NCBI GenBank assembly: GCA_902465215.1
Contig: CABQMM010000006.1
Location: forward strand, 1 to 14,200
Length of the DNA: 14,200 nt
Direction of reading: 5' to 3'
Origin: an uncultured Bacillota bacterium
Lineage (GTDB): Bacteria; Bacillota; Clostridia; Peptostreptococcales; Anaerovoracaceae
A model generated the notes under the pieces. It saw only the letters and a program-made list of their open reading frames with translations. It ran no database searches and was not told the DNA's origin. Positions 100-14,200 of the stretch are shown here, in pieces (the first letter of the stretch is position 1; the number at the start of each line of letters is the position of its first letter). Position numbers and translations under genes: made by a program.

Positions 100-115
100 T
101 GGCACGATACTTGCT
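100..115 (+). promoter_or_regulatory. Sigma-54 (RpoN) -24/-12 promoter
   Basis: The sequence TGGCACGATACTTGCT matches the sigma-54 consensus TGGCACG-N4-TTGCW at every defined position. The -24 GG is at 101-102 and the -12 GC at 113-114, which predicts a transcript start near 126. It lies 54 bases before the ureohydrolase start with no gene between, so it should drive the operon running to the terminator at 4799-4834. Sigma-54 promoters need an ATP-dependent enhancer-binding protein; none is encoded in the window. The A/T-rich 1-95 could hold its upstream site, but I see no convincing long dyad there. Confidence 0.88.
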
Positions 116-168
116 CTATATACAAGCAAAAGATGCATCAAAATTTATTTCCGGGAGGGACAAAAATC

Positions 169-1065
169 ATGGAAAAATTAAAATATGGACTTTTAGGGTT
201 AAATTATGACACAGAGGCCGGAAGAGGATGGCCTGGCGCAAGATACGCTCCCGACAGCATAAGAAGAGCGATGTCGGGAATTATGAACCGAATGGAGGAC
301 GGATTCCTTTTCGATGTAAACAACAACAGACTTGTTGACTACAATAAAATTGACTTTAAGGATTTCGGAAATTGTGATAATATTGTTCATTATGAACACT
401 ATCAAGGCCTGAAGGACATGGCGGAAGAAATTAAAAAAGTTATGGCAGAAGGCTACAAGCCGATTTTGCTGGGCGGCGACCATTCCGTAACGAACGCGGG
501 ATTTATGGCGCTGCATGATGTGGCAGACGGAAGAATCGGCATCATCGACTTCGACGCACATCTGGACATCAAGGTGGATTCCCCGGTACAGGGAAGATTC
601 TCCGGTTCCAGTGAAATCAGAAGAGCGACGGAAATGGAAAAATACGATGCGCACAACATCGTTGAAATCGGTCCGAGAGGCTACAACTATCCGGAACACT
701 ACCACTTCATCAAGGACAGCGGTCTTACAATTTTCACTGCAAGAGATGTATATAAGCTCGGAGTGGAAGAAATCGCAAAGCGTACGATTGAGACAGTAAG
801 AAAGAATACAGACTATGTTTATATGACAGTTGACATTGATGCTTTGGATATGGCATATGCACTCGGCTCCGGCGGACAGGAACCGGCAGGCTTGAACCAC
901 TTCCAGCTGTCTGACTTAATCAAGGCATTCGCGCCTTATGTCGATGTAGTTGACTTCGTAGAAGTAAATCCGATGACAGACCACAAAGAACTGACCAGCC
1001 ATGTATGCGCAAATCTCGTTTTGGACTACATCGCAGCCGCTTATTACGAAAAGTTCGAAAAATAA
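169..1065 (+). CDS. Ureohydrolase (arginase/agmatinase) family enzyme, substrate unknown
   Basis: A 298-residue cytoplasmic enzyme of the arginase/agmatinase/formiminoglutamase superfamily, which uses two Mn ions to hydrolyse guanidino or amidino groups. All expected metal-ligand motifs are present: GGDHS (His105), DAHLD (Asp129, His131, Asp133) and VDIDALD (Asp222, Asp224), plus VEVNP near the C-terminus. GARYAPDSIRR near residue 23 is the usual N-terminal motif. The loop after the last ligands reads ALGSGGQEPAGL instead of the common PGTGTPEPGGL, so substrate choice may differ from agmatinase. I chose ATG 169 over the in-frame ATG 133 because GGGAGG at 153-158 is correctly spaced and 133 lies almost on the predicted transcript start. 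It is the first gene of the operon with TRAP transporter genes. Candidate substrates are guanidino acids, formimino amino acids or agmatine. Confidence 0.85.
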   Translation: MEKLKYGLLGLNYDTEAGRGWPGARYAPDSIRRAMSGIMNRMEDGFLFDVNNNRLVDYNKIDFKDFGNCDNIVHYEHYQGLKDMAEEIKKVMAEGYKPILLGGDHSVTNAGFMALHDVADGRIGIIDFDAHLDIKVDSPVQGRFSGSSEIRRATEMEKYDAHNIVEIGPRGYNYPEHYHFIKDSGLTIFTARDVYKLGVEEIAKRTIETVRKNTDYVYMTVDIDALDMAYALGSGGQEPAGLNHFQLSDLIKAFAPYVDVVDFVEVNPMTDHKELTSHVCANLVLDYIAAAYYEKFEK

Positions 1066-1115
1066 AAAATAAAAGGCTCACATAAAGAGAACATAAAAAG
1101 AAAGTAGGTTTACAG

Positions 1116-1658
1116 ATGAAGACTGTATTAAAGATTAACAATTTCATAGTTAAGGCAGAGCAGGTCATCATCGCAGCCGGAATATTGATTATTTCACTTG
1201 TTTTGATTGGAAATGTACTCGGAAGACTATTCTTCAGCAAAGGCATCTATGCAACCGAGGAAATCGGACAATACTGCATTTACGCAATCACCTTCATCGG
1301 TCTGAGCTATGCGGTAACGACAGGAAAACATATCAATATGCTCGGGCTGTTCGATATGGCACCGAAAAAATTCCGGAAAATTGACGCATTTATCATTTCA
1401 GGAGTGACGGCAGCTACCATGGGCGTACTTACGGGAATATCCTTTAAATATGTCTCCACGCTGAAACTCATAGGCAAAGTATCCATCAACCTGCAGGTGC
1501 CGACCTATCTGGTGGTTGCGGTAATTTCCTTCGGATTCCTGTTTGCAACGCTGCAGTATATTCTGATATTTATTAAAAATCTGCAAAGCGACGAAATTTA
1601 TTTAGGGCTCGAAAATCCATATGTGCCTGATTTCAGAAGGGAGGAAAAGAAAAAATGA
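1116..1658 (+). CDS. dctQ: TRAP transporter small permease (DctQ-type)
   Basis: A 180-residue inner-membrane protein with four hydrophobic segments at roughly residues 17-36, 47-66, 90-110 and 128-151, the size and topology of the DctQ subunit. The second segment carries the family pattern EEIGQY...FIGLSYAV...GKHI, where DctQ proteins have an EE pair, a glycine-rich helix and a His-containing loop. DctQ scaffolds the large permease in Na+-dependent TRAP carriers. The gene starts 50 bases after the ureohydrolase, has only a modest Shine-Dalgarno (AAGTAGG near 1102), and overlaps the next gene by 4 bp. The symbol names the family only, not a dicarboxylate substrate. Confidence 0.87.
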   Translation: MKTVLKINNFIVKAEQVIIAAGILIISLVLIGNVLGRLFFSKGIYATEEIGQYCIYAITFIGLSYAVTTGKHINMLGLFDMAPKKFRKIDAFIISGVTAATMGVLTGISFKYVSTLKLIGKVSINLQVPTYLVVAVISFGFLFATLQYILIFIKNLQSDEIYLGLENPYVPDFRREEKKK

Positions 1659-2926
1659 TTGTAGTATTGGTTGGAATCATGTTTGCTTGTCTCCTTTTGG
1701 GATTTCCGATGTTTATGTGCATGATTCTGAGTTCGACAGTTGTTATCTTCGCATATCTTGATAGTATGCAGTCGACGACCATCATTCAGCAGCTCATGTC
1801 GGGCGTAGATTCCTTCGCTCTTCTGGCAATTCCGCTTTTCATCTTTGCGGCGGACATCATGAGCGCAGGACATACGGCAAGAAGACTGATTGAATTCGTA
1901 AAGGCCTTCATCGGCCATATTTATGGAGGATTAGGCGTAACGATGGCAGGAACCTGTACGCTGTTCGGCGCAATTTCAGGCTCCACGCAGGCAACGGTAG
2001 TAGCAATCGGCAAAACCATGCGTCCGATGATGCTGGAATCCGGCTACAAAGAATCCAATGTTGACGGACTGATTATCTCGTCAGCCAACATTGCGGCTTT
2101 AATCCCGCCAAGCGTAACGATGATTATGTACAGCGTAGTAACGGGCGCTTCCGTCGGTGAAATGTTCATCGCAGGCATCGCTCCGGGCATACTGCTCTTC
2201 ATAGTATTTTCGATTTATCAATATTTGAGCGCGAGAAAGAACAAGCTTCCACGCTCCGAAAAGACAACCTGGGCGCAAAAAGGACAGGCAACGCTCCGTG
2301 CACTGCTTCCGCTGGGCTTTCCGGTTATCATTGTAGGAAGCATTTACACAGGAAAGGCAAGTCCGACAGAGGCTGCGGCAATCTCCGTATTATATGCGGC
2401 TTTGCTGGAAATGGTTGTTTACCGCACGGTAAAGATTAAGGATCTGGGGAAAATCGCTTTATCTACAGGCGCAGTTACGGCGACACTGTTCATCCTGCTC
2501 GCAAGCGGACAGATTTTCTCGCTCGTGCTTACATATGCGAATGTACCGCAGATGATTGCGACAGGTGTTTTGGGCGCAAATCCATCCATGACGACAATCC
2601 TGATTTGGGTAACGGTTTTCTTCTTCATCGCAGGAATGTTCGTAGACCCGCTGATTGCAGTCGTTGTAGTAACGCCGATTTTCTACGGCCCGGCGATGGC
2701 GGCCGGAATCGACCCGATCTGGCTCGGAATCATCATTACGATTCAGTGCATACTCGGAGCAATCTCACCGCCGTTTGGATGCAACATCTTTACAGCCTGC
2801 GCTGCATTTGATGTTCCATATATGAGGGTAGTAAAGGGGCTGCCGGTATACATGCTCATTATGATAGCATTATCGGTAATACTGATTTTCTTCCCACAAA
2901 TTATCACATTCTATCGGTTATTTTAA
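1655..2926 (+). CDS. dctM: TRAP transporter large permease (DctM-type)
   Basis: A 423-residue polytopic membrane protein, the normal length for DctM, which forms the ion-coupled translocation path. Family signatures are visible in order: SGSTQATVVAIG (about residues 108-119), IPPSVTMIMYS (about 150-160), GKASPTEAAAISVLYA in mid-protein, and AISPPFGCNIF near residue 370. ATG 1655 overlaps the stop of the small permease as ATGA. The Shine-Dalgarno GGGAGG sits inside the upstream gene near 1639, so the two subunits are probably translationally coupled. It is followed by the solute-binding gene after 36 bases. No truncation or missing motif is seen. Confidence 0.92.
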   Translation: MIVVLVGIMFACLLLGFPMFMCMILSSTVVIFAYLDSMQSTTIIQQLMSGVDSFALLAIPLFIFAADIMSAGHTARRLIEFVKAFIGHIYGGLGVTMAGTCTLFGAISGSTQATVVAIGKTMRPMMLESGYKESNVDGLIISSANIAALIPPSVTMIMYSVVTGASVGEMFIAGIAPGILLFIVFSIYQYLSARKNKLPRSEKTTWAQKGQATLRALLPLGFPVIIVGSIYTGKASPTEAAAISVLYAALLEMVVYRTVKIKDLGKIALSTGAVTATLFILLASGQIFSLVLTYANVPQMIATGVLGANPSMTTILIWVTVFFFIAGMFVDPLIAVVVVTPIFYGPAMAAGIDPIWLGIIITIQCILGAISPPFGCNIFTACAAFDVPYMRVVKGLPVYMLIMIALSVILIFFPQIITFYRLF

Positions 2927-2962
2927 TGTAGAGTCTATAGGACTAGGAGAAAGGATGAAGAC

Positions 2963-4012
2963 ATGAAAAAGAAATTATTATTACTTGCAGTATCGTTAAT
3001 CGCTGTAATGCTTGTTTTCGCAGGATGCGGAGGCAATGACGACTCCAATACAGAGGGACAGACCGAAGTATGGAAACTGGCGCACCAGGAATCCACAGGA
3101 ACTGTATTCGACAACTATGCTCACCACTTCGCGGATTTAGTTTCCGAAAAGTCAAACGGTCGCATCACAGTTGAGGTTTACCCGGTAGGGCAGCTTGGAG
3201 ACACAGGGACACAGGTTGAAATGCTGATGAACGGCGGCGTTCAGTTCGGGATTTTAGCAGCGGGAGATGTCGGCGATATGTTCCCCGCGACTCAGGCATT
3301 ATCCTTGAACTTTGTATTTTCCGATGATGACGATGTAAACAGCGCGGTTCTCACGCAGGGAGAAGCAACAAAATATTTAAATAATTTGTTCTTAGACAAG
3401 AATATTACAACTTATGACTGGCTCAGCCTCGGCAACATGCAGTGGACAAGCAACAAGCCGCTGCATACCCTGAAGGACTTCAAAGGTTTCAAGATGAGAA
3501 TCATGGCATCCCCGATCATCGCCGCGAACTATGAAGCACTCGGCGCAAGCCCTACACCAATGGCATTTACAGAGACTTATTCCGGTCTTCAGCTTAAGAC
3601 GGTAGAAGGAACCGAACAGCCTCTGAACGCGATTCAGGAAATGAAGTTCTATGAAGTTCAGGATTATATTACAATGTCCAATCATGCGCAGATGGCATCC
3701 TTCATGGCTATGAACTCGGATTTCTACAACGGACTTTCCGACGAGGACAAAGCTCTTCTGGATGAAATCAAGCCGGAAATGGAAATCTTCGCAAAGGAAA
3801 ATCTTCAGCAGATGCTGACAGAAAAGTTCGACGCTATTAAGGAAGCAAAACCGGGAATCAAGGTTGAAGAACTGACAGAAGAAGAAAGACAGGCATTCAT
3901 TGACGCGAGCCTTCCTGTAAGAGACCGCATCGAAGAATTCGGCGGCAAGGAAGCAAAAGAAGTTTTAGACCTCCTGCTTGCAGATGTTGAAAAATACGAA
4001 AAAGAAAGGTAA
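2963..4012 (+). CDS. dctP: TRAP transporter solute-binding lipoprotein (DctP-type)
   Basis: A 349-residue extracytoplasmic binding protein. It begins with a lipoprotein signal peptide, and the lipobox VFAGC places the lipidated Cys at residue 22, as expected in a Gram-positive cell. The DctP fold shows in KLAHQ...VFDNYAHHFADLV at residues 38-60, GRITVEVYPVGQLGD at 66-80 and GFKMRIMAS around 175-183. Arg179 is the conserved residue that normally salt-bridges a substrate carboxylate. TVEGTEQPLNAI (213-224) corresponds to the usual VDGQENP loop. Retention of the Arg implies a carboxylate-bearing ligand, which fits a guanidino or amidino acid better than free agmatine. The Shine-Dalgarno is AGGAG/AAAGG at 2945-2954. 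It follows dctM and ends 5 bases before the LUD gene. Confidence 0.92.
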   Translation: MKKKLLLLAVSLIAVMLVFAGCGGNDDSNTEGQTEVWKLAHQESTGTVFDNYAHHFADLVSEKSNGRITVEVYPVGQLGDTGTQVEMLMNGGVQFGILAAGDVGDMFPATQALSLNFVFSDDDDVNSAVLTQGEATKYLNNLFLDKNITTYDWLSLGNMQWTSNKPLHTLKDFKGFKMRIMASPIIAANYEALGASPTPMAFTETYSGLQLKTVEGTEQPLNAIQEMKFYEVQDYITMSNHAQMASFMAMNSDFYNGLSDEDKALLDEIKPEMEIFAKENLQQMLTEKFDAIKEAKPGIKVEELTEEERQAFIDASLPVRDRIEEFGGKEAKEVLDLLLADVEKYEKER

Positions 4013-4017
4013 AGAAC

Positions 4018-4758
4018 ATGCGCAGACTCAGACAGAATGTGGATGTGCCACTTAGTGCGGTAACACATGATATCAATCAGATTAAAAAAGAATATTCATT
4101 TTATAAGGGAAGCGCTATTGTAAAAGCATTGAAGAAAAATTTTTTTGATGCATACTATGTGGAAAACAAGAGTGAAGCAGCAAAGTTGTTACATCAGCTG
4201 ATTCCGGATAACAGCGTTATTGGAGTCGGCGATTCCCATTCCTTCTACGAACTCAATATGGAAAGCGAGTTGAAAACAAGAGGGTGCAAGCTGATTCCCA
4301 ATGTTGCGGCGTTAAACCTGCATAGCTACAACAGCGATGAGTATGGATATGTAAAGGCACCGACCAGAGAGCAGGCGAGAGATATTTTAGCAGACTATTT
4401 GACCAGTGATGTATTTGTTTTAAGTGCCAATGCGATTACGATGGAAGGCGAAATCATAAATGTAGATGGTGTCGGCAACAGAATCGCAGGCAGTTTATAC
4501 GGTGCGGATCGAATTATTATGGTTGTTGGCATCAATAAAATCGTAAGAGATGAAGAAAGCGGCCGTAAGCGTATTGCTGATATCGCAGCACCCATGAATA
4601 AGGTTAAATATGGTGAGAAATGTCCGGGTCTTGTAGCAGGAAGATGTGTAAGCTGTAGAGGAGAGGATCGTTTTTGCAATATTACAACAATCATTCACAA
4701 AAAGCCGATAGAATCTGATTTCCATGTCATAATCGTTGGAGAAGAGCTGGGATTTTAA
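4018..4758 (+). CDS. LUD-domain (LutC/YkgG-like) protein with C-terminal Cys cluster
   Basis: A 246-residue protein of the LUD family (formerly DUF162), the group annotated in clostridia as 'lactate utilization protein'. Typical segments are VKALKKNFFDAYYVEN (35-50), SVIGVGDSHS (66-75), VLSANAITMEGEIINVDGVGNR (134-155) and GADRIIMVVGINKIV (162-176). Four cysteines at 202, 210, 213 and 220 (CX7CX2CX6C) could bind a metal or an Fe-S cluster; this is inference. No LutA or LutB partner is in the window, so a lactate role is not supported by context. ATG 4018 is preceded by AAAGG at 4005-4009, which lies at the dctP stop, suggesting coupling. It is the last gene before the terminator. Its role with the ureohydrolase and TRAP genes is unknown; handling the oxidisable product of the imported compound is one possibility. 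Confidence 0.83.
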   Translation: MRRLRQNVDVPLSAVTHDINQIKKEYSFYKGSAIVKALKKNFFDAYYVENKSEAAKLLHQLIPDNSVIGVGDSHSFYELNMESELKTRGCKLIPNVAALNLHSYNSDEYGYVKAPTREQARDILADYLTSDVFVLSANAITMEGEIINVDGVGNRIAGSLYGADRIIMVVGINKIVRDEESGRKRIADIAAPMNKVKYGEKCPGLVAGRCVSCRGEDRFCNITTIIHKKPIESDFHVIIVGEELGF

Positions 4759-4798: not shown

Positions 4799-4834
4799 AA
4801 AACCGCCCGATGCTTTACGCAGAGGGCGGTTTTT
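4799..4834 (+). terminator. Rho-independent terminator closing the TRAP operon
   Basis: ACCGCCC (4802-4808) pairs perfectly with GGGCGGT (4824-4830). The stem is extended by A/T pairs, has a loop of about 15 bases, and is followed by a T run to 4834. It lies 41 bases after the LUD stop codon and is the strongest intrinsic terminator in the window. Confidence 0.93.
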
Positions 4835-4892
4835 GGCAAGTGCAGCGAGCATGAGCTTCTTCACAGCGAAAGTTCACAAATGGATCAGCCTG

Positions 4893-6868: not shown

Positions 6869-6912
6869 AAGAACACCTCATAGATATAGAAATATATTGA
6901 AGAGGTGTTTTT
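6869..6912 (+). promoter_or_regulatory. Leader hairpin burying the pdaA ribosome binding site
   Basis: AACACCTC (6872-6879) pairs with GAGGTGTT (6902-6909), extendable by G-U and A-T pairs to 6869/6912. The loop contains a second stem, ATATA (6884-6888) with TATAT (6893-6897), capped by a GAAA tetraloop. The right arm contains the GAGG Shine-Dalgarno (6902-6905) of pdaA and is followed by T's up to ATG 6914. It could work as a translation-blocking hairpin or as a weak intrinsic terminator/attenuator. Confidence 0.6.
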
Positions 6913-6913
6913 T

Positions 6914-7942
6914 ATGGGGAAAAATTTTGGCAGGAAGGCAGTCGTGGCAGGCTGCATAGGTATGGCAGCGGTTGCGCTGCTGGTTACAGTTTTGACATTT
7001 CAGGGGATTTTGGCATTGGGCAGGGGTGATTCAGGCGCAGGCAACGGAACGAGCGCGGGCGCAGGTTCTTCCGCAGGCGCAGGCATGAACTCTGGCGCGG
7101 ACGTGAACGCGGGCGCGGTCACCGGTGCGGTAAATAAGGACAGCGGGCAAGGCGCGGTGGCTACCGCGGCAGATGGAAACTGGGGGCTTTCCTTCCAGCA
7201 GGAGGGTAAATCGCCAATCGGCAATGCGACGAGTGAATATCTGAAGAAGTACAACGCATACTATATAGGCGACCAGCGAAGCGGCGCGCAGGAAAGCAAA
7301 AAAGACGGCGGCAAGCAGGCCGCAGCCCCAGGCAATACAGGCGCGGGTAAAACAGGCGAAAAGGCGATTTACCTCACCTTCGATGCGGGCTACGAGAACG
7401 GATACACCGCGACGCTTTTGGATGTTTTAAAGGAAGAAAAGGTGCCGGCGGCATTTTTTGTGGTAGGAAATTTCGTCGAGGAAAATCCGGAGCTTGTCAA
7501 ACGCATGACGGACGAGGGACATATCGTGGGCAATCACACCATGCATCATCCAGACATGTCGGCCATTTCTGACGAGGCGGGCTTCCGCAAAGAAATGAGC
7601 GAGCTCGAGGCGGCATACAAAGAGGCGGTCGGGCGCGATATGCTGAAATTTTACAGGCCGCCGCAGGGCAAATACAGCGAAAGAAATCTGGAAATGGCAA
7701 ACCGCATGGGCTACACGACGGTGTTTTGGAGTCTTGCATATGTAGACTGGCTTCAGGACAGTCAGCCAAGCAAGGAAGAGGCTTTGAACATCTTGAACAA
7801 AAGAATTCACCCGGGGGCAATCGTGCTTCTTCACAGCACTTCAAAGACGAATGCGGAGATTTTGCAGGAACTTTTGCAGGGTTGGAAGGCGCAGGGGTAT
7901 GTCTTTAAGTCGATTTCGGAGCTGGGTGTGGAAAAACTTTAG
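6914..7942 (+). CDS. pdaA: PdaA-type polysaccharide deacetylase (spore cortex muramic-delta-lactam pathway)
   Basis: A 342-residue membrane-anchored or secreted NodB-family deacetylase. Residues 9-35 form an N-terminal hydrophobic segment, followed by a low-complexity Gly/Ala/Ser linker to about 80. NWGLSF...YLKKYNAYYIGD (89-120) resembles the N-terminal part of PdaA. The catalytic domain starts with YLTFDAGYENGYT (Asp157), as in the PdaA subgroup, where the second Asp of TFDD is replaced. Metal ligands are His208 and His212 in GNHTMHH. RPPQGKYS (248-255), FWSLAYVDW (271-279) and LLHS (305-308) complete the motifs. PdaA removes the N-acetyl group from muramic acid during delta-lactam formation in spore cortex, hence the inference of a spore-former. 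I prefer ATG 6914 to GTG 6905 because GAGG at 6902-6905 is the ribosome site. Its expression may be controlled by the leader hairpin. Confidence 0.87.
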   Translation: MGKNFGRKAVVAGCIGMAAVALLVTVLTFQGILALGRGDSGAGNGTSAGAGSSAGAGMNSGADVNAGAVTGAVNKDSGQGAVATAADGNWGLSFQQEGKSPIGNATSEYLKKYNAYYIGDQRSGAQESKKDGGKQAAAPGNTGAGKTGEKAIYLTFDAGYENGYTATLLDVLKEEKVPAAFFVVGNFVEENPELVKRMTDEGHIVGNHTMHHPDMSAISDEAGFRKEMSELEAAYKEAVGRDMLKFYRPPQGKYSERNLEMANRMGYTTVFWSLAYVDWLQDSQPSKEEALNILNKRIHPGAIVLLHSTSKTNAEILQELLQGWKAQGYVFKSISELGVEKL

Positions 7943-9130: not shown

Positions 9131-9673
9131 ATGAAAAAGAAAAAACTACTAATCGTTGTCGATTACCAAAACGATTTCACAGTCGGCTCGCTCGGCTGCC
9201 CGCAGGCTGCGGCAATCGAAGATGCAGTGGCTGCGAAAATTGAAGAATACCGCGCCATAGGCGAGGAGGCGCAAATCATCTTCACCATGGACACGCATGA
9301 TAAAGATTATCTGCGCACGCAGGAGGGCAGAAATCTGCCGATTGAGCACTGTATCAAAGGCTTCGACGGATGGCAGCTTTACGGCAAAGTCGCTGCGCTG
9401 AAGTCGCCGGAAGATCTTGTCTTCTCAAAGCCGACTTTCGGCTCGCTGGAGCTTGCAGATTACCTGCGTGACAAGGGCGGCGAATATGAAAGCATCGAGT
9501 TTGCCGGCGTCGTAACGAATATCTGCGTGATTTCCAATATGGTACTCGCAAAGGCTGCCATGCCGGAGGTTCCAATCCTTATCGACGCCGCCTGCGTGGC
9601 AAGCAACGACGACAGGCTCGGCGAAGCAGCACTCGCTGTCATGGAAACCATGCATGTGAAGGTGAAACGGTAG
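9131..9673 (+). CDS. pncA: Nicotinamidase / isochorismatase-family cysteine hydrolase
   Basis: A 180-residue cytoplasmic amidohydrolase of the isochorismatase fold, probably nicotinamidase, which converts nicotinamide to nicotinate for NAD salvage. The catalytic triad is present: Asp11 in VVDYQNDF, Lys100 in VFSKPTFGS and Cys132 in VVTNICV, preceded by the expected cis-peptide pair Val-Thr. The PncA-type metal site is also visible as Asp54, His56 (MDTHDKDY) and His73 (IEHC). The EGRNLPIEHC spacing is typical of PncA and argues against other cysteine hydrolases, though a related amidase is not excluded. GGAG at 9121-9124 precedes the start. The gap to the upstream secreted protein is only 35 bases with no terminator, so it may share the promoter at 7961. 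Confidence 0.82.
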   Translation: MKKKKLLIVVDYQNDFTVGSLGCPQAAAIEDAVAAKIEEYRAIGEEAQIIFTMDTHDKDYLRTQEGRNLPIEHCIKGFDGWQLYGKVAALKSPEDLVFSKPTFGSLELADYLRDKGGEYESIEFAGVVTNICVISNMVLAKAAMPEVPILIDAACVASNDDRLGEAALAVMETMHVKVKR

Positions 9674-10384: not shown

Positions 10385-12607
10385 ATGTATAATACCGCAA
10401 AACGAGTTGCACGCGTTAAAAAACGAATGTTCAGCATTTTGCTCATGTGCTGCATGGTGCTAACGCTGCTGCCTGCCACGGCTTTTGCCGGGGAGGATAT
10501 CCAGGTAAACACCGGGAGGCTAAACGAGGGTGAAATCGAAGGGGGCATTTTTGACGATAAAGTAATAAACAATAGCAAGATCACCGGCGGTAAGTTTTAT
10601 GGTGAAGTGGTAAACAATGGTGAAATCACCGGCGGCGTTTTCTATGGCACGGTAACAGGCAGCGGCACGATTTCGGAGAGCCTCTATAAGACCGTGACAT
10701 TTGACTCCGATGGCAGCGGCGCGGTCGCTTCACAACGAGTTCTGCCGGGACAGAAGGCGCAAAGACCGGAGGCTATTACGAAAGAGGGTCATACTTTTGT
10801 CTGTTGGTTTGACACAAGCGAAGCACAGAATAGCAATGTACGGGAGTGGTATTTCAATGTTCCTGTGACCAAGGATTTGGAACTGAAAGCCCGGTGGCTG
10901 CAGGCGATGACAATCTCCAACGAACCGGTCACCTATCTGGACGCAGACGGCAAGAAGCAGGTCTGTAGCGAATACATCGTACTGAAGAGCAATACCGCAG
11001 ACGACATTCTCGACCTTGAGAACAAATGGTACGATCTGCCTGCCGGCTGGTATGTCGTGGAGGGCAGTGTCACCATCACGCCCCGCGTGGACACCCACGG
11101 AGCGGTCAATTTCATTTTGAAGGACAACAGCCAATTCACAGCAGAGTGGGGCATCAATGTGAAGGAGGATGATACCTTCACCGTCTATGCCCAAAGCACT
11201 GATGAGAAAACCATGGGTAAGCTGACAGCGTGCCTGCCTGAAGAGTTTAAGAGCGGCGCGAGTGTCGATTACGAGGTATGGCCGGAAAGAGGGCTGTCCG
11301 GCATCGGCAGCGGTGTGCGCTGGAGGAAAGCCAATGATGGTATCCACGAAAGTGAGGGCACGATCATCATCAACGGCGGCAACATCCTCGCCAGAGGGCA
11401 GTATCTAGCCTCCGCCATCGGCGGAACCGGGGCCGATACAATTAATGGGTGGTCGGATTCTTTCGGAAACAGACAGTGCGGCAGCGTTACCATTAATGAC
11501 GGCTTCATTCGTACCGAAGTGGTAACAAAAGTAAGTCTTGATATTGCCGACAGCGTTGGGATCGGGTCTTGCCAATCCGGTTATGGCGGTAGCGTCACCA
11601 TCAATGGCGGCACAGTCATTGCCGAGGCCGTCAACGATGCAATCTGCACAGGACGCGGCGGCAGCATTACCATTAACGGCGGCGATATAACGGCGCGAGG
11701 AGGCGTCAACAGAACTACAAGACCGGGCTATCTGAACTACCTGCCTTTTGGAAACGGAATCGGGCCGTCCCTAAGAGGTGAAAATGCCAACATCATCATC
11801 AACGGCGGTAATGTAGATGCGTCTACCGGCGGCAGGGGCTCAGGTATTGGCGGATTTGCGCCAATAACGGTAGAAATCAACGGCGGCAACATAAAAGCGG
11901 ATGGTTGTCAAGCAGGCGACCATGTTGCAGCAGGTATTGGCGGAAGGGGCAGTGTCAGCATCGCCGGCGGGAGGATCTCAGCAACGGGAAGAATTCAGGC
12001 GGCAGGCATCGGCGGTCTGGCTGATGTCAGCATCACCGGTGGCGAGATCACCGTATCCGCCGAGGACACGGGTGCAGCCATTGGAGCGTCTCTCTACAAC
12101 CCTGTCAGTGTTATTAGTAGACCGAGCGGTGGAGAGAAAATCAGCATCCGCGGCAGCGCAATCAAATCCATTTCCAGCAAGAACGGTGCCTGCATCGGCG
12201 GAGCCACGAACAGAAGTGTTCCAAATATCACCATCCTTGACGCCGAGCTTCCGTTCCTCAACAGCGAGAAACTTCTGATCGGCAACTGGGACAGTGATGA
12301 TGTGGAGGGCAATCTCACCATCCGAAACTGCCGCATCCTGTCAACATCCGCTACAGTATATAGAGGAATACAGATGGGCAATAATGGAAATATACTGATT
12401 GAAGACAGCGAGATCAGGCTGCCCGGGAAAAAGGGAATCATCACCGGCGACGGCGGGAGCATTGCTATCCGCGATTCCTGGATCCTCACATACGGCATTT
12501 ATATGGAAGGAGACCCCCCCACCCTCAAGAAACGCGAGGAAGCTGAAGCGCATAGAGATTACGGACAGCACCGTGATGACAGGCAATACCATCGGTACCG
12601 ACGATAA
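10385..12607 (+). CDS. Large secreted beta-helix/InlB-B-repeat surface protein, N-terminal part cut by a frameshift
   Basis: This frame gives 740 residues before a premature stop. ATG 10385 follows GAGGAGGA (10367-10373); the longer in-frame start at 10271 lies in the terminator hairpin and is rejected. The signal peptide (1-35) ends in AFA|G. Residues 48-95 hold short repeats of the type GEITGGVFYGTV. Residues 102-171 form an InlB B-repeat/Listeria-Bacteroides repeat domain (TVTFDSDGS ... FVCWFD ... LKARW). A segment around 210-310 (DLPAGWYVVEGSVTI...GINVKEDDTFTVYAQS) precedes about ten beta-helix rungs of the form SVTINGGxIxA with GIGG turns (about 325-560). After codon GAC 12512 the frame meets seven C and the protein turns into an Arg/His/Glu-rich nonsense tail. 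Coding resumes in another frame. A cell-surface adhesin or glycan-binding role is likely but inferred. Confidence 0.78.
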   Translation: MYNTAKRVARVKKRMFSILLMCCMVLTLLPATAFAGEDIQVNTGRLNEGEIEGGIFDDKVINNSKITGGKFYGEVVNNGEITGGVFYGTVTGSGTISESLYKTVTFDSDGSGAVASQRVLPGQKAQRPEAITKEGHTFVCWFDTSEAQNSNVREWYFNVPVTKDLELKARWLQAMTISNEPVTYLDADGKKQVCSEYIVLKSNTADDILDLENKWYDLPAGWYVVEGSVTITPRVDTHGAVNFILKDNSQFTAEWGINVKEDDTFTVYAQSTDEKTMGKLTACLPEEFKSGASVDYEVWPERGLSGIGSGVRWRKANDGIHESEGTIIINGGNILARGQYLASAIGGTGADTINGWSDSFGNRQCGSVTINDGFIRTEVVTKVSLDIADSVGIGSCQSGYGGSVTINGGTVIAEAVNDAICTGRGGSITINGGDITARGGVNRTTRPGYLNYLPFGNGIGPSLRGENANIIINGGNVDASTGGRGSGIGGFAPITVEINGGNIKADGCQAGDHVAAGIGGRGSVSIAGGRISATGRIQAAGIGGLADVSITGGEITVSAEDTGAAIGASLYNPVSVISRPSGGEKISIRGSAIKSISSKNGACIGGATNRSVPNITILDAELPFLNSEKLLIGNWDSDDVEGNLTIRNCRILSTSATVYRGIQMGNNGNILIEDSEIRLPGKKGIITGDGGSIAIRDSWILTYGIYMEGDPPTLKKREEAEAHRDYGQHRDDRQYHRYRR
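11361..12060 (+). repeat. Degenerate repeat array coding beta-helix rungs
   Basis: Within the surface-protein gene, the core ATCAAYGGCGG or ATTAACGGCGG and its variants recur about every 60-110 bases, for example near 11369, 11601, 11673, 11799 and 11877. They encode INGGxI rungs, interspersed with GGTATTGGCGG-type stretches coding GIGG. This is protein-level repetition with enough DNA similarity to permit slippage or recombination. Confidence 0.7.
12514..12520 (+). other. C7 tract at the frameshift point
   Basis: Seven consecutive C follow GGAGA. In the upstream frame they lead to a stop at 12605-12607. With six C, the frame reads DPPPSRNARKLKRIEITDS and joins the downstream open frame without a stop. 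The site is either a real slippage or phase-variable tract, a fixed mutation or a base-calling error. Confidence 0.75.
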
Positions 12608-14200
12608 CAACGCTTCTGTTGGCGAAATCGTGATCCACGGCAGCAGTATCCGCAAAAACGGTGAGGATTATGAGAGTGGCTACAGCATTGGCTGCGGTGA
12701 ATACGCCACCTTTGACCGCATCGACATTCAGGACAGCCGGATTGATATTCCGGGTGCTACCCTTGGCGCAGCCATCGGCAGCGGTAGAGGGTCTAGATAT
12801 ATTGGCGAAAGCATCATTCGCATCGCAAACAGCCAGGTGTTTGCAAGCACCTATCACTTCAGTCCTGCCATCGGTGTCGGTGCAGACTCCTATGGAGAAA
12901 GAGACAAAGACGGAACGCTGCGGATCTTCATCGAGAACAGCTCTGTGATCGCAAAAGGAGGCTATTTACGTCCTTACACTCAATATACTCCCGGAATCGG
13001 AAAAAAGGAGGGCCGTAATTTTCCGGAAACCTATATTCAGGTTATGAACAGTACCGTGGAGTCTTTCCGACATACAGAAAGAGGAAACAATCTCGATTTC
13101 GATTATGTCTATGACGACCTGCACACGAGAAGCATACCGGGCATTCCGGAGGAAAACATCACCGTCTGCGGCAGCACCGTCAACGGAACACGCATTGATC
13201 ACAGCTTTGATGAATACGGCAAATGCACGCTTTGTGGCAAATACGACCTAGGATATTGCTATGAAAAAGGGCTTCTGACGATTGAGGGACTTACGGACTG
13301 CAGCTATGACGGCAGCGAAAAGAAGCTGACGGGACTTTCCCTTAAAACCGGTGAAAATACCGATAGGCAGCTTGCGGAGGGAACAGACTACACCGCCGGC
13401 TATTCAAACAATATCTATACATATACGCTCACCACGGATGAGGCGGGCTTTGACCCTGCCAAGGCTCCTAAGGTGACCCTGTATGGCACAGGGGGCTACT
13501 GCGGCAAGGTGGAACACTACTTTACCATCAGCGGAGACGCACAAGCCTCGTACAGCGTAAAATATGATACCGCCGGGGGAACGAAAATCAGCGACAAGAG
13601 CGACATCAGGTGGCAGCAGCGCGTGCTGGACGGTGTGGAGCCGCCAACCAGAATCGGCTATGATTTCCGGGGCTGGAACTGTAACGGCAAGCCCGTGCTT
13701 GCAAACACAACCTACGCGGAGCTGGCTGGCGATGCGAGCATGAAAAGCATTACGCTGACAGCACAGTGGGCGGATTCGGGATACCCTGCAGGTGAGGTTC
13801 GTATTGACGAGAATAGTGCATGGCAGAAGTTCCAGGTGGCGCGCTTCAACCTGATCTATAATACAGGGAAAACGGTTACCATCACCGCTATGGACGCAGG
13901 TGGCAAGCCTGTGAGCATCGGCTATCTGATCAGCAATGAAATGATTGTTTATCAAAGAGACTGCGAAAGCAAGGAGTTTACAGCATACACCGGCCCAATC
14001 CACATAGAAGAGGACGGCAACTATGCCGTCTATGTAAAGCTCACCAACGCAGCGGGCAAGAGCACATATATCAGCACAGGCGGTTTCGTGATTGATACCA
14101 CAGCCCCTGTGATTGATGGTATTGAGGACGGCGGCGTGTATTATGGGGTATCCAAAATTACTTGTGGTTTCTCCAAAAACAACTGTGGGATGGATTCGTG
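12576..14200 (+). CDS. Surface protein, C-terminal continuation in shifted frame, partial at window end
   Basis: This frame is open from the C7 tract to the last base, with no stop seen; the first ATG is 12576, which has no ribosome site. It carries more beta-helix rungs (IGEIVIHGSS-type, GAAIGSG, PAIGVGADS) to about 13190. A HSFDEYGKCTLCGKYD motif (about 13200-13250) looks like a small CxxC zinc-ribbon knuckle. A repeat domain with LTIEGLTDCSYDGSEKKLTG follows. A second InlB B-repeat (about 13552-13770, VKYDTAGGT ... YDFRGWNCNGK ... ITLTAQW) is next, then an Ig-like end (GFVIDTTAPVIDGIEDGG) near 14088-14140. The match in domain style to the upstream part shows it was one gene. As it stands it is the untranslated or pseudogene half unless the frame is restored. 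The true 3' end and any wall anchor lie outside the window. Confidence 0.75.
   Translation, partial: MTGNTIGTDDNNASVGEIVIHGSSIRKNGEDYESGYSIGCGEYATFDRIDIQDSRIDIPGATLGAAIGSGRGSRYIGESIIRIANSQVFASTYHFSPAIGVGADSYGERDKDGTLRIFIENSSVIAKGGYLRPYTQYTPGIGKKEGRNFPETYIQVMNSTVESFRHTERGNNLDFDYVYDDLHTRSIPGIPEENITVCGSTVNGTRIDHSFDEYGKCTLCGKYDLGYCYEKGLLTIEGLTDCSYDGSEKKLTGLSLKTGENTDRQLAEGTDYTAGYSNNIYTYTLTTDEAGFDPAKAPKVTLYGTGGYCGKVEHYFTISGDAQASYSVKYDTAGGTKISDKSDIRWQQRVLDGVEPPTRIGYDFRGWNCNGKPVLANTTYAELAGDASMKSITLTAQWADSGYPAGEVRIDENSAWQKFQVARFNLIYNTGKTVTITAMDAGGKPVSIGYLISNEMIVYQRDCESKEFTAYTGPIHIEEDGNYAVYVKLTNAAGKSTYISTGGFVIDTTAPVIDGIEDGGVYYGVSKITCGFSKNNCGMDS

Follow-up and report, generated by a model that had tools for sequence, protein, structure and literature searches.

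A sigma-54 promoter element is present at positions 100–115 of a 14,200-nucleotide stretch of DNA from an uncultured Bacillota bacterium; the whole of this stretch is termed the window. With a probability of roughly 0.8, the element is the working promoter of an operon at 169–4758 that encodes a TRAP transporter and hydrolase catabolic module and is served by a dedicated, divergently encoded enhancer-binding protein (EBP). Sequence comparison supports the promoter and its conservation, the activator and paired palindromes found in relatives, and the gene families assigned to the operon.

The promoter and operon of the window

The -24/-12 element is real. The sequence TGGCACGATACTTGCT occupies exactly positions 100–115, with GG and GC dinucleotides 10 bases apart in a TGGCAC-N5-TTGCW context. 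An earlier note on this DNA had claimed that every -24/-12 consensus base is present, and this holds: the match to TGGCACNNNNNTTGCW is exact and is the only one on either strand of the window, against an expected number of 0.03; among 200 shuffled sequences, five contain one. In the 168 bases 5′ of the hydrolase gene, the score of 12/12 is reached by none of 300 shuffles. When two mismatches are allowed, 12 matches are found in the window versus 8.8 expected, a count that 38 of 200 shuffles reach; these looser matches lie within chance and therefore carry no meaning.

The spacing between the element and the start of the first gene is 53 bases. Transcription from sigma-54 promoters typically begins about 12 bases past the GC of the -12 element, and the predicted start is given on this basis in Table 1, together with the other features of the operon. 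An in-frame ATG at 133 was considered as the start of the hydrolase gene and rejected; it leaves a leader of only ∼7 bases, and the family alignment begins at 169.

Table 1. Promoter, genes and terminator of the operon in the window
Feature	Position	Strand	Basis
Sigma-54 promoter core (-24 TGGCAC, 100–105; -12 TTGCT, 111–115)	100–115	+	Sequence read, consensus scan
Predicted transcription start	126	+	∼12 bases after the -12 GC; inferred from spacing
Likely ribosome-binding site GGGAGG	153–158	+	Sequence read
Arginase/ureohydrolase-family metal hydrolase, 298 amino acids	169–1065	+	PF00491
TRAP small membrane subunit DctQ	1116–1658	+	PF04290
TRAP large membrane subunit DctM	1655–2926	+	PF06808; TIGR00786 over cut-off
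TRAP substrate-binding protein DctP	2963–4012	+	PF03480; TIGR00787 over cut-off
LUD-domain protein with cysteines close to the C-terminus	4018–4758	+	PF02589, E 5.3e-33; translation
Intrinsic terminator ending the operon	4799–4835	+	U-rich-ended stem; folding z -3.0; 1 of 200 shuffles as stable

The five genes are tightly spaced, with gaps of 50, -4, 36 and 5 bases, and all three subunits of a DctPQM TRAP transporter are encoded among them. The operon is closed by a terminator, as had been proposed from the sequence; a simple terminator scan missed the stem because its loop exceeds the limit of that scan. An Rfam search gives no match and a tRNA search finds none, nor does a scan of viral contigs yield a relative. 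Plasmid matches are to the DctM gene only, at 4–7% of the query, and are found in seven Leisingera plasmids.

Other genes are found further along the window. A sporulation-type polysaccharide deacetylase, encoded at 6905–7942 and narrowly short of the PdaA cut-off (295 of 298 bits), suggests a spore-forming lineage. It is followed by an isochorismatase-family hydrolase at 9131–9673. The segment 10271–14200 encodes a long surface-type protein with a List_Bact_rpt domain, seemingly split between two overlapping frames; the frame break lies near a run of seven C residues at 12514–12520 and may represent a sequencing error, decay or phase variation.

Conservation of the promoter

Related operons come from a scan of genome contigs with a 32-row hydrolase alignment, which gave 17 loci, and from an order-wide search that added four further loci, taken in longer pieces (L028–L031). 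At 1e-60 the hydrolase is found in 7 of 393 genomes of the order of G006 (G006, G007 and G013 among them), in 1 of 400 genomes of the family of G004 (G004 itself) and in one of the two genomes of the genus of G002 (G002 itself). In L004 and L013 the hydrolase was taken from the alignment scan; the thinning of open reading frames had kept an antisense frame over the hydrolase there. Promoters were scored with TTGGCAYNNNNNTTGCW in up to 350 bases 5′ of the first gene of each operon, and L015–L017, which are fragmentary or remote, were left out of the scoring.

By this comparison, the -24/-12 promoter is conserved at related operons. Sites of 10–12/12 are found, at varying distances from the gene, in all 14 related operons that adjoin an EBP gene (the window excluded), although these are not all independent, as the gene order makes L006 and L029, and also L009 and L010, look like close pairs. 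The full score of 12/12 is seen in the window, L001, L003, L004, L006, L028, L030, L031 and the second cluster of L008; L002, L005, L009, L010 and L029 score 11/12 and L013 scores 10/12. None of 300 shuffles matches these scores, except for one in L030, two in L013 and three in L010. Four loci supply five gene starts that lack an upstream EBP gene (L007, L012, L014 and two in the first cluster of L008); these give a best score of 9 or less, or no candidate, and a BLAST search for an EBP of the operon-adjoining family finds none in L007, L012 or L014. A separate aminotransferase gene in L006 scores 6. L011 has no candidate, but only 108 bases are present upstream. The closest relative, L001, has aligned DNA 73% identical to the window. 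The alignment takes in the promoter, which is thus kept, but starts at window base 97 and leaves the bases before it unaligned.

The activator and its candidate binding sites

An EBP gene adjoins each of the 14 related operons that were scored with a promoter. It is divergent in ten (L001–L006, L013, L028, L029 and L030), whereas in L008, L009, L010 and L031 it is upstream and co-directional with the operon. The hydrolases of L001–L006 and L013 are 74–92% identical to that of the window, and the EBP gene is directly upstream and divergent there, as in L028–L030, although it is truncated by the end of the contig in L003 and part of it is masked in L005. These relatives bear out one expectation of the earlier note, that a sigma-54 activator gene would lie directly upstream, and support another, that control would be exerted by a dedicated activator.

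The EBPs form one family: in a 12-row alignment they are 41–66% identical to the first row, and all 12 rows keep GSFTGA or GSYTGA. Three EBPs scanned with Pfam contain the sigma-54 interaction domain, the AAA+ lid and a Fis-type helix-turn-helix, and their first 138–144 residues match no Pfam family at 1e-3. In a structural model of the L002 protein (mean pLDDT 78.8, pTM 0.54), residues 20–122 form two strands, short helices and then three strands, an order of secondary structure that reads as PAS-like; a fold search with the EBP was filled by matches to the AAA+ domain. Among curated families, the five EBPs that were scanned match PrdR (NF041552) best, at 318–377 bits versus a cut-off of 795. 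As these scores are far under the cut-off, the proteins are regarded as PrdR-like and not as PrdR.

A pair of palindromes, ACA-N3-TGT-N11-ACA-N3-TGT, is found upstream of the promoter with a score of 10–12/12 in all nine close loci (L001–L006, L013, L028 and L029). Only 0–6 of 500 shuffles are as good when the 260 bases upstream of the promoter are searched. The pair starts 132–260 bases before the promoter; the value of 260 is that of L013 and coincides with the limit of the searched stretch. A search of nine whole genomes for the exact pair gives a single occurrence in each of G001, G003, G004 and G006, in every case at this locus, and none in G002, G013, G218 or G305. The sole exact match in G005 sits inside a prophage-tail gene and is therefore taken as chance. 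A backwards control gives one match in the nine genomes, in G003. The pair is not shared by the distant operons L008, L009, L010, L030 and L031.

Positions 1–168 of the window do not contain the palindrome pair. As the window begins just 99 bases before the -24 element, both the palindromes and the activator gene are expected left of base 1; in the window's own genome, the activator gene would be divergent and just beyond that base, and the palindrome pair would probably precede the promoter as it does in the close relatives.

Control by a general regulator, such as a nitrogen regulator, in place of a dedicated activator is very improbable. The window itself contains no activator gene and ureohydrolases release nitrogen, both of which would agree with general control, but the constant presence of a one-family EBP beside the scored relatives and the rarity of the exact palindrome pair, at most one place per genome in nine, argue against it. 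Least credible is transcription chiefly by a housekeeping sigma factor with an incidental -24/-12 match, since a sigma-70-type scan of the window gives no plus-strand site starting within 1–156 and the 14 EBP-adjacent relatives keep the site although its distance from the gene varies.

The presence of rpoN, also expected from the earlier reading, was assessed in relatives, where 17 of 18 genomes carry the gene (13 of 14 in the first set, and the four further ones). The one miss is G001, the genome of the closest locus, in which no rpoN is found with either Pfam domain. L001 is a contig of just 4.3 kb in a metagenome bin labelled Lachnospiraceae, and mis-binning or incompleteness of G001 is thus possible. 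At L004:14857–16263, an rpoN frame is found 32 bases past the LUD gene in the same direction, and another rpoN is present elsewhere in G004. It would be unusual for a sigma factor to travel with the operon that it serves.

The hydrolase and its probable substrate

The hydrolase has the PF00491 domain, and it has the fold and the presumed binuclear metal ligands in common with the arginase/agmatinase/formimidoylglutamase superfamily. The substrate of the operon is probably an amidino or guanidino carboxylate. Some related clusters add genes for an aminotransferase, an ornithine-cyclodeaminase-family protein and EutA-like proteins. At 1e-100 the aminotransferase is found in 9 of 18 genomes with the module versus 0 of 40 others, and at 1e-70 in 12 of 18 versus 8 of 40, a co-occurrence that is only suggestive because the two groups of genomes differ in kinship. 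In some relatives, amino-acid permeases or ABC carriers are found in place of the TRAP transporter, so the substrate may differ between relatives. In L030, a 52% identical hydrolase is paired with a permease similar to basic amino acid/polyamine antiporters.

Several neighbourhoods show further gene combinations. L031:965–9078 has an arginine-deiminase-family gene and two M20-family genes, which precede the EBP gene, a permease gene and a hydrolase 38–39% identical to that of the window. Dethiosulfatibacter aminovorans (L008:6828–20870) has two adjacent hydrolase-TRAP clusters, whose enzymes share 61% and 36% identity with that of the window; an EutA-like gene is present in each cluster, and a strong -24/-12 site is present at the second only. 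At L047:7944–15364, another EBP gene (34%) and a divergent sigma-54-like site at 14168 are found in the vicinity of an ornithine-cyclodeaminase-family gene flanked by two aminotransferase genes.

That the operon is a conventional one of arginine catabolism, equipped with a TRAP importer and acting on arginine, agmatine or 4-guanidinobutyrate, is a possibility of some weight, though not the expected outcome. The enzyme is of the arginase family, and ornithine-cyclodeaminase-family genes are found near the hydrolase in L002, L006 and L008 and beside an aminotransferase gene elsewhere in the genome in G005, G305 and G280. The permease of L030 and the arginine deiminase relative of L031 point the same way. 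On the other hand, the hydrolase widely misses the NCBIfam equivalog cut-offs for agmatinase (108 of 174 bits), arginase (91 of 228) and formimidoylglutamase (133 of 229), and the residue aligned with the loop histidine of guanidinobutyrase is glycine in 32 of 32 rows of the hydrolase family.

An undescribed anaerobic pathway is a more tentative idea and on balance unlikely. Here the operon, with its own sigma-54 activator, would import a hydroxylated or cyclic guanidino or amidino amino acid by the TRAP carrier, a new ureohydrolase subfamily would open the guanidine, and an aminotransferase with EutA/EutC-like enzymes would yield a fermentable amino acid. The aminotransferase would, as part of the same tentative idea, be related to capreomycidine synthase and gamma-hydroxyarginine cyclodehydratase. 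At 1e-100 the aminotransferase is found in 9 of 18 genomes with the module versus 0 of 40 others, and at 1e-70 in 12 of 18 versus 8 of 40, a co-occurrence that is only suggestive because the two groups of genomes differ in kinship.

Less probable again is that the substrate of the hydrolase is ectoine or another cyclic amidine, in an anaerobic ectoine-type pathway where the enzyme would replace the ectoine hydrolase EutD. The nearest solved relatives of the window DctP after 4pfi are ectoine binders, namely TeaA (2vpn and also 3gyy, which we take to be TeaA) and UehA (3fxb). Two residues of TeaA that presumably take part in ectoine binding, W167 and F209, are aligned with F202 and M244 of DctP, a difference that counts against ectoine. 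The entries 2vpn and 3fxb are TeaA and UehA according to the portion of PMC5924519 that deals with them. The likeness to TeaABC and UehABC with EutABC extends to L008, where EutA-, EutB- and EutC-like genes are found beside the hydrolase, but these score far under the curated cut-offs (131 of 318 bits for EutA, 182 of 413 for EutB and 203 of 472 for EutC). EutD over its curated cut-off is found in 0 of 18 genomes with the module, as replacement would predict, but equally in 0 of 14 control genomes, which included no ectoine degrader. The permease partner of the L030 hydrolase also argues against ectoine. The relevant part of PMC5924519 names EnuR as the regulator that accompanies ectoine operons in many microbes, and not a neighboring sigma-54 EBP as seen here in the related operons.

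Proposed mechanism and significance

In the favored explanation, that of a sigma-54 promoter with a dedicated activator, sigma-54 (RpoN) polymerase would sit poised at 100–115 to serve the five-gene operon. The activator would use a Fis-type helix-turn-helix to bind the TGT/ACA palindrome pair, which starts ∼130–205 bases 5′ of the -24 element (in one relative, 260); its N-terminal sensor would be PAS-like, and its AAA+ core would activate sigma-54. In the presence of ligand, the palindrome-bound activator would loop over to the poised polymerase. The TRAP carrier would import the carboxylate, the arginase-family hydrolase would cleave its amidine or guanidine group, and the LUD protein may process the product, in some relatives together with the aminotransferase, the ornithine-cyclodeaminase-family enzyme and EutA-like proteins. 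Induction by the substrate and the chemistry of the pathway are the conjectural parts of this scheme. That the operon is an inducible catabolic module, as the earlier note had suggested, may fairly be inferred from the transporter, the hydrolase and the PAS-like domain on the activator of relatives.

The sigma-54/EBP arrangement is ordinary for Clostridia. Regulons of this type described in Clostridiales include those of PrdR (proline), OrdR (ornithine) and AguQ (agmatine), with the promoter consensus TTGGCATNNNNNTTGCT; 15 EBP groups, PrdR among them, have sites of TGT and ACA inverted repeats 10–12 bases apart, as given in the relevant sections of that report (Nie et al., 2019, PMC6615313). 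The operon described here agrees with these regulons in promoter consensus and as a probable amino acid catabolic operon; its close relatives share the TGT/ACA type of site, and PrdR is the best curated match of the activators scanned in relatives, yet under cut-off. The novelty lies in the target: a ureohydrolase-TRAP-LUD operon is absent from the EBP groups in Table 1 of PMC6615313. A literature search, judged by titles and the opening lines of abstracts, found no published description of such an operon.

The same combination of regulator, target site, transporter and enzymes is found in several Clostridia, and the substrate is therefore directly testable in a cultured relative. The ligand of the activator should be the substrate of the pathway or an early product. 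With this finding, the sigma-54 control known for clostridial amino acid fermentation would extend to guanidino or amidino compounds.
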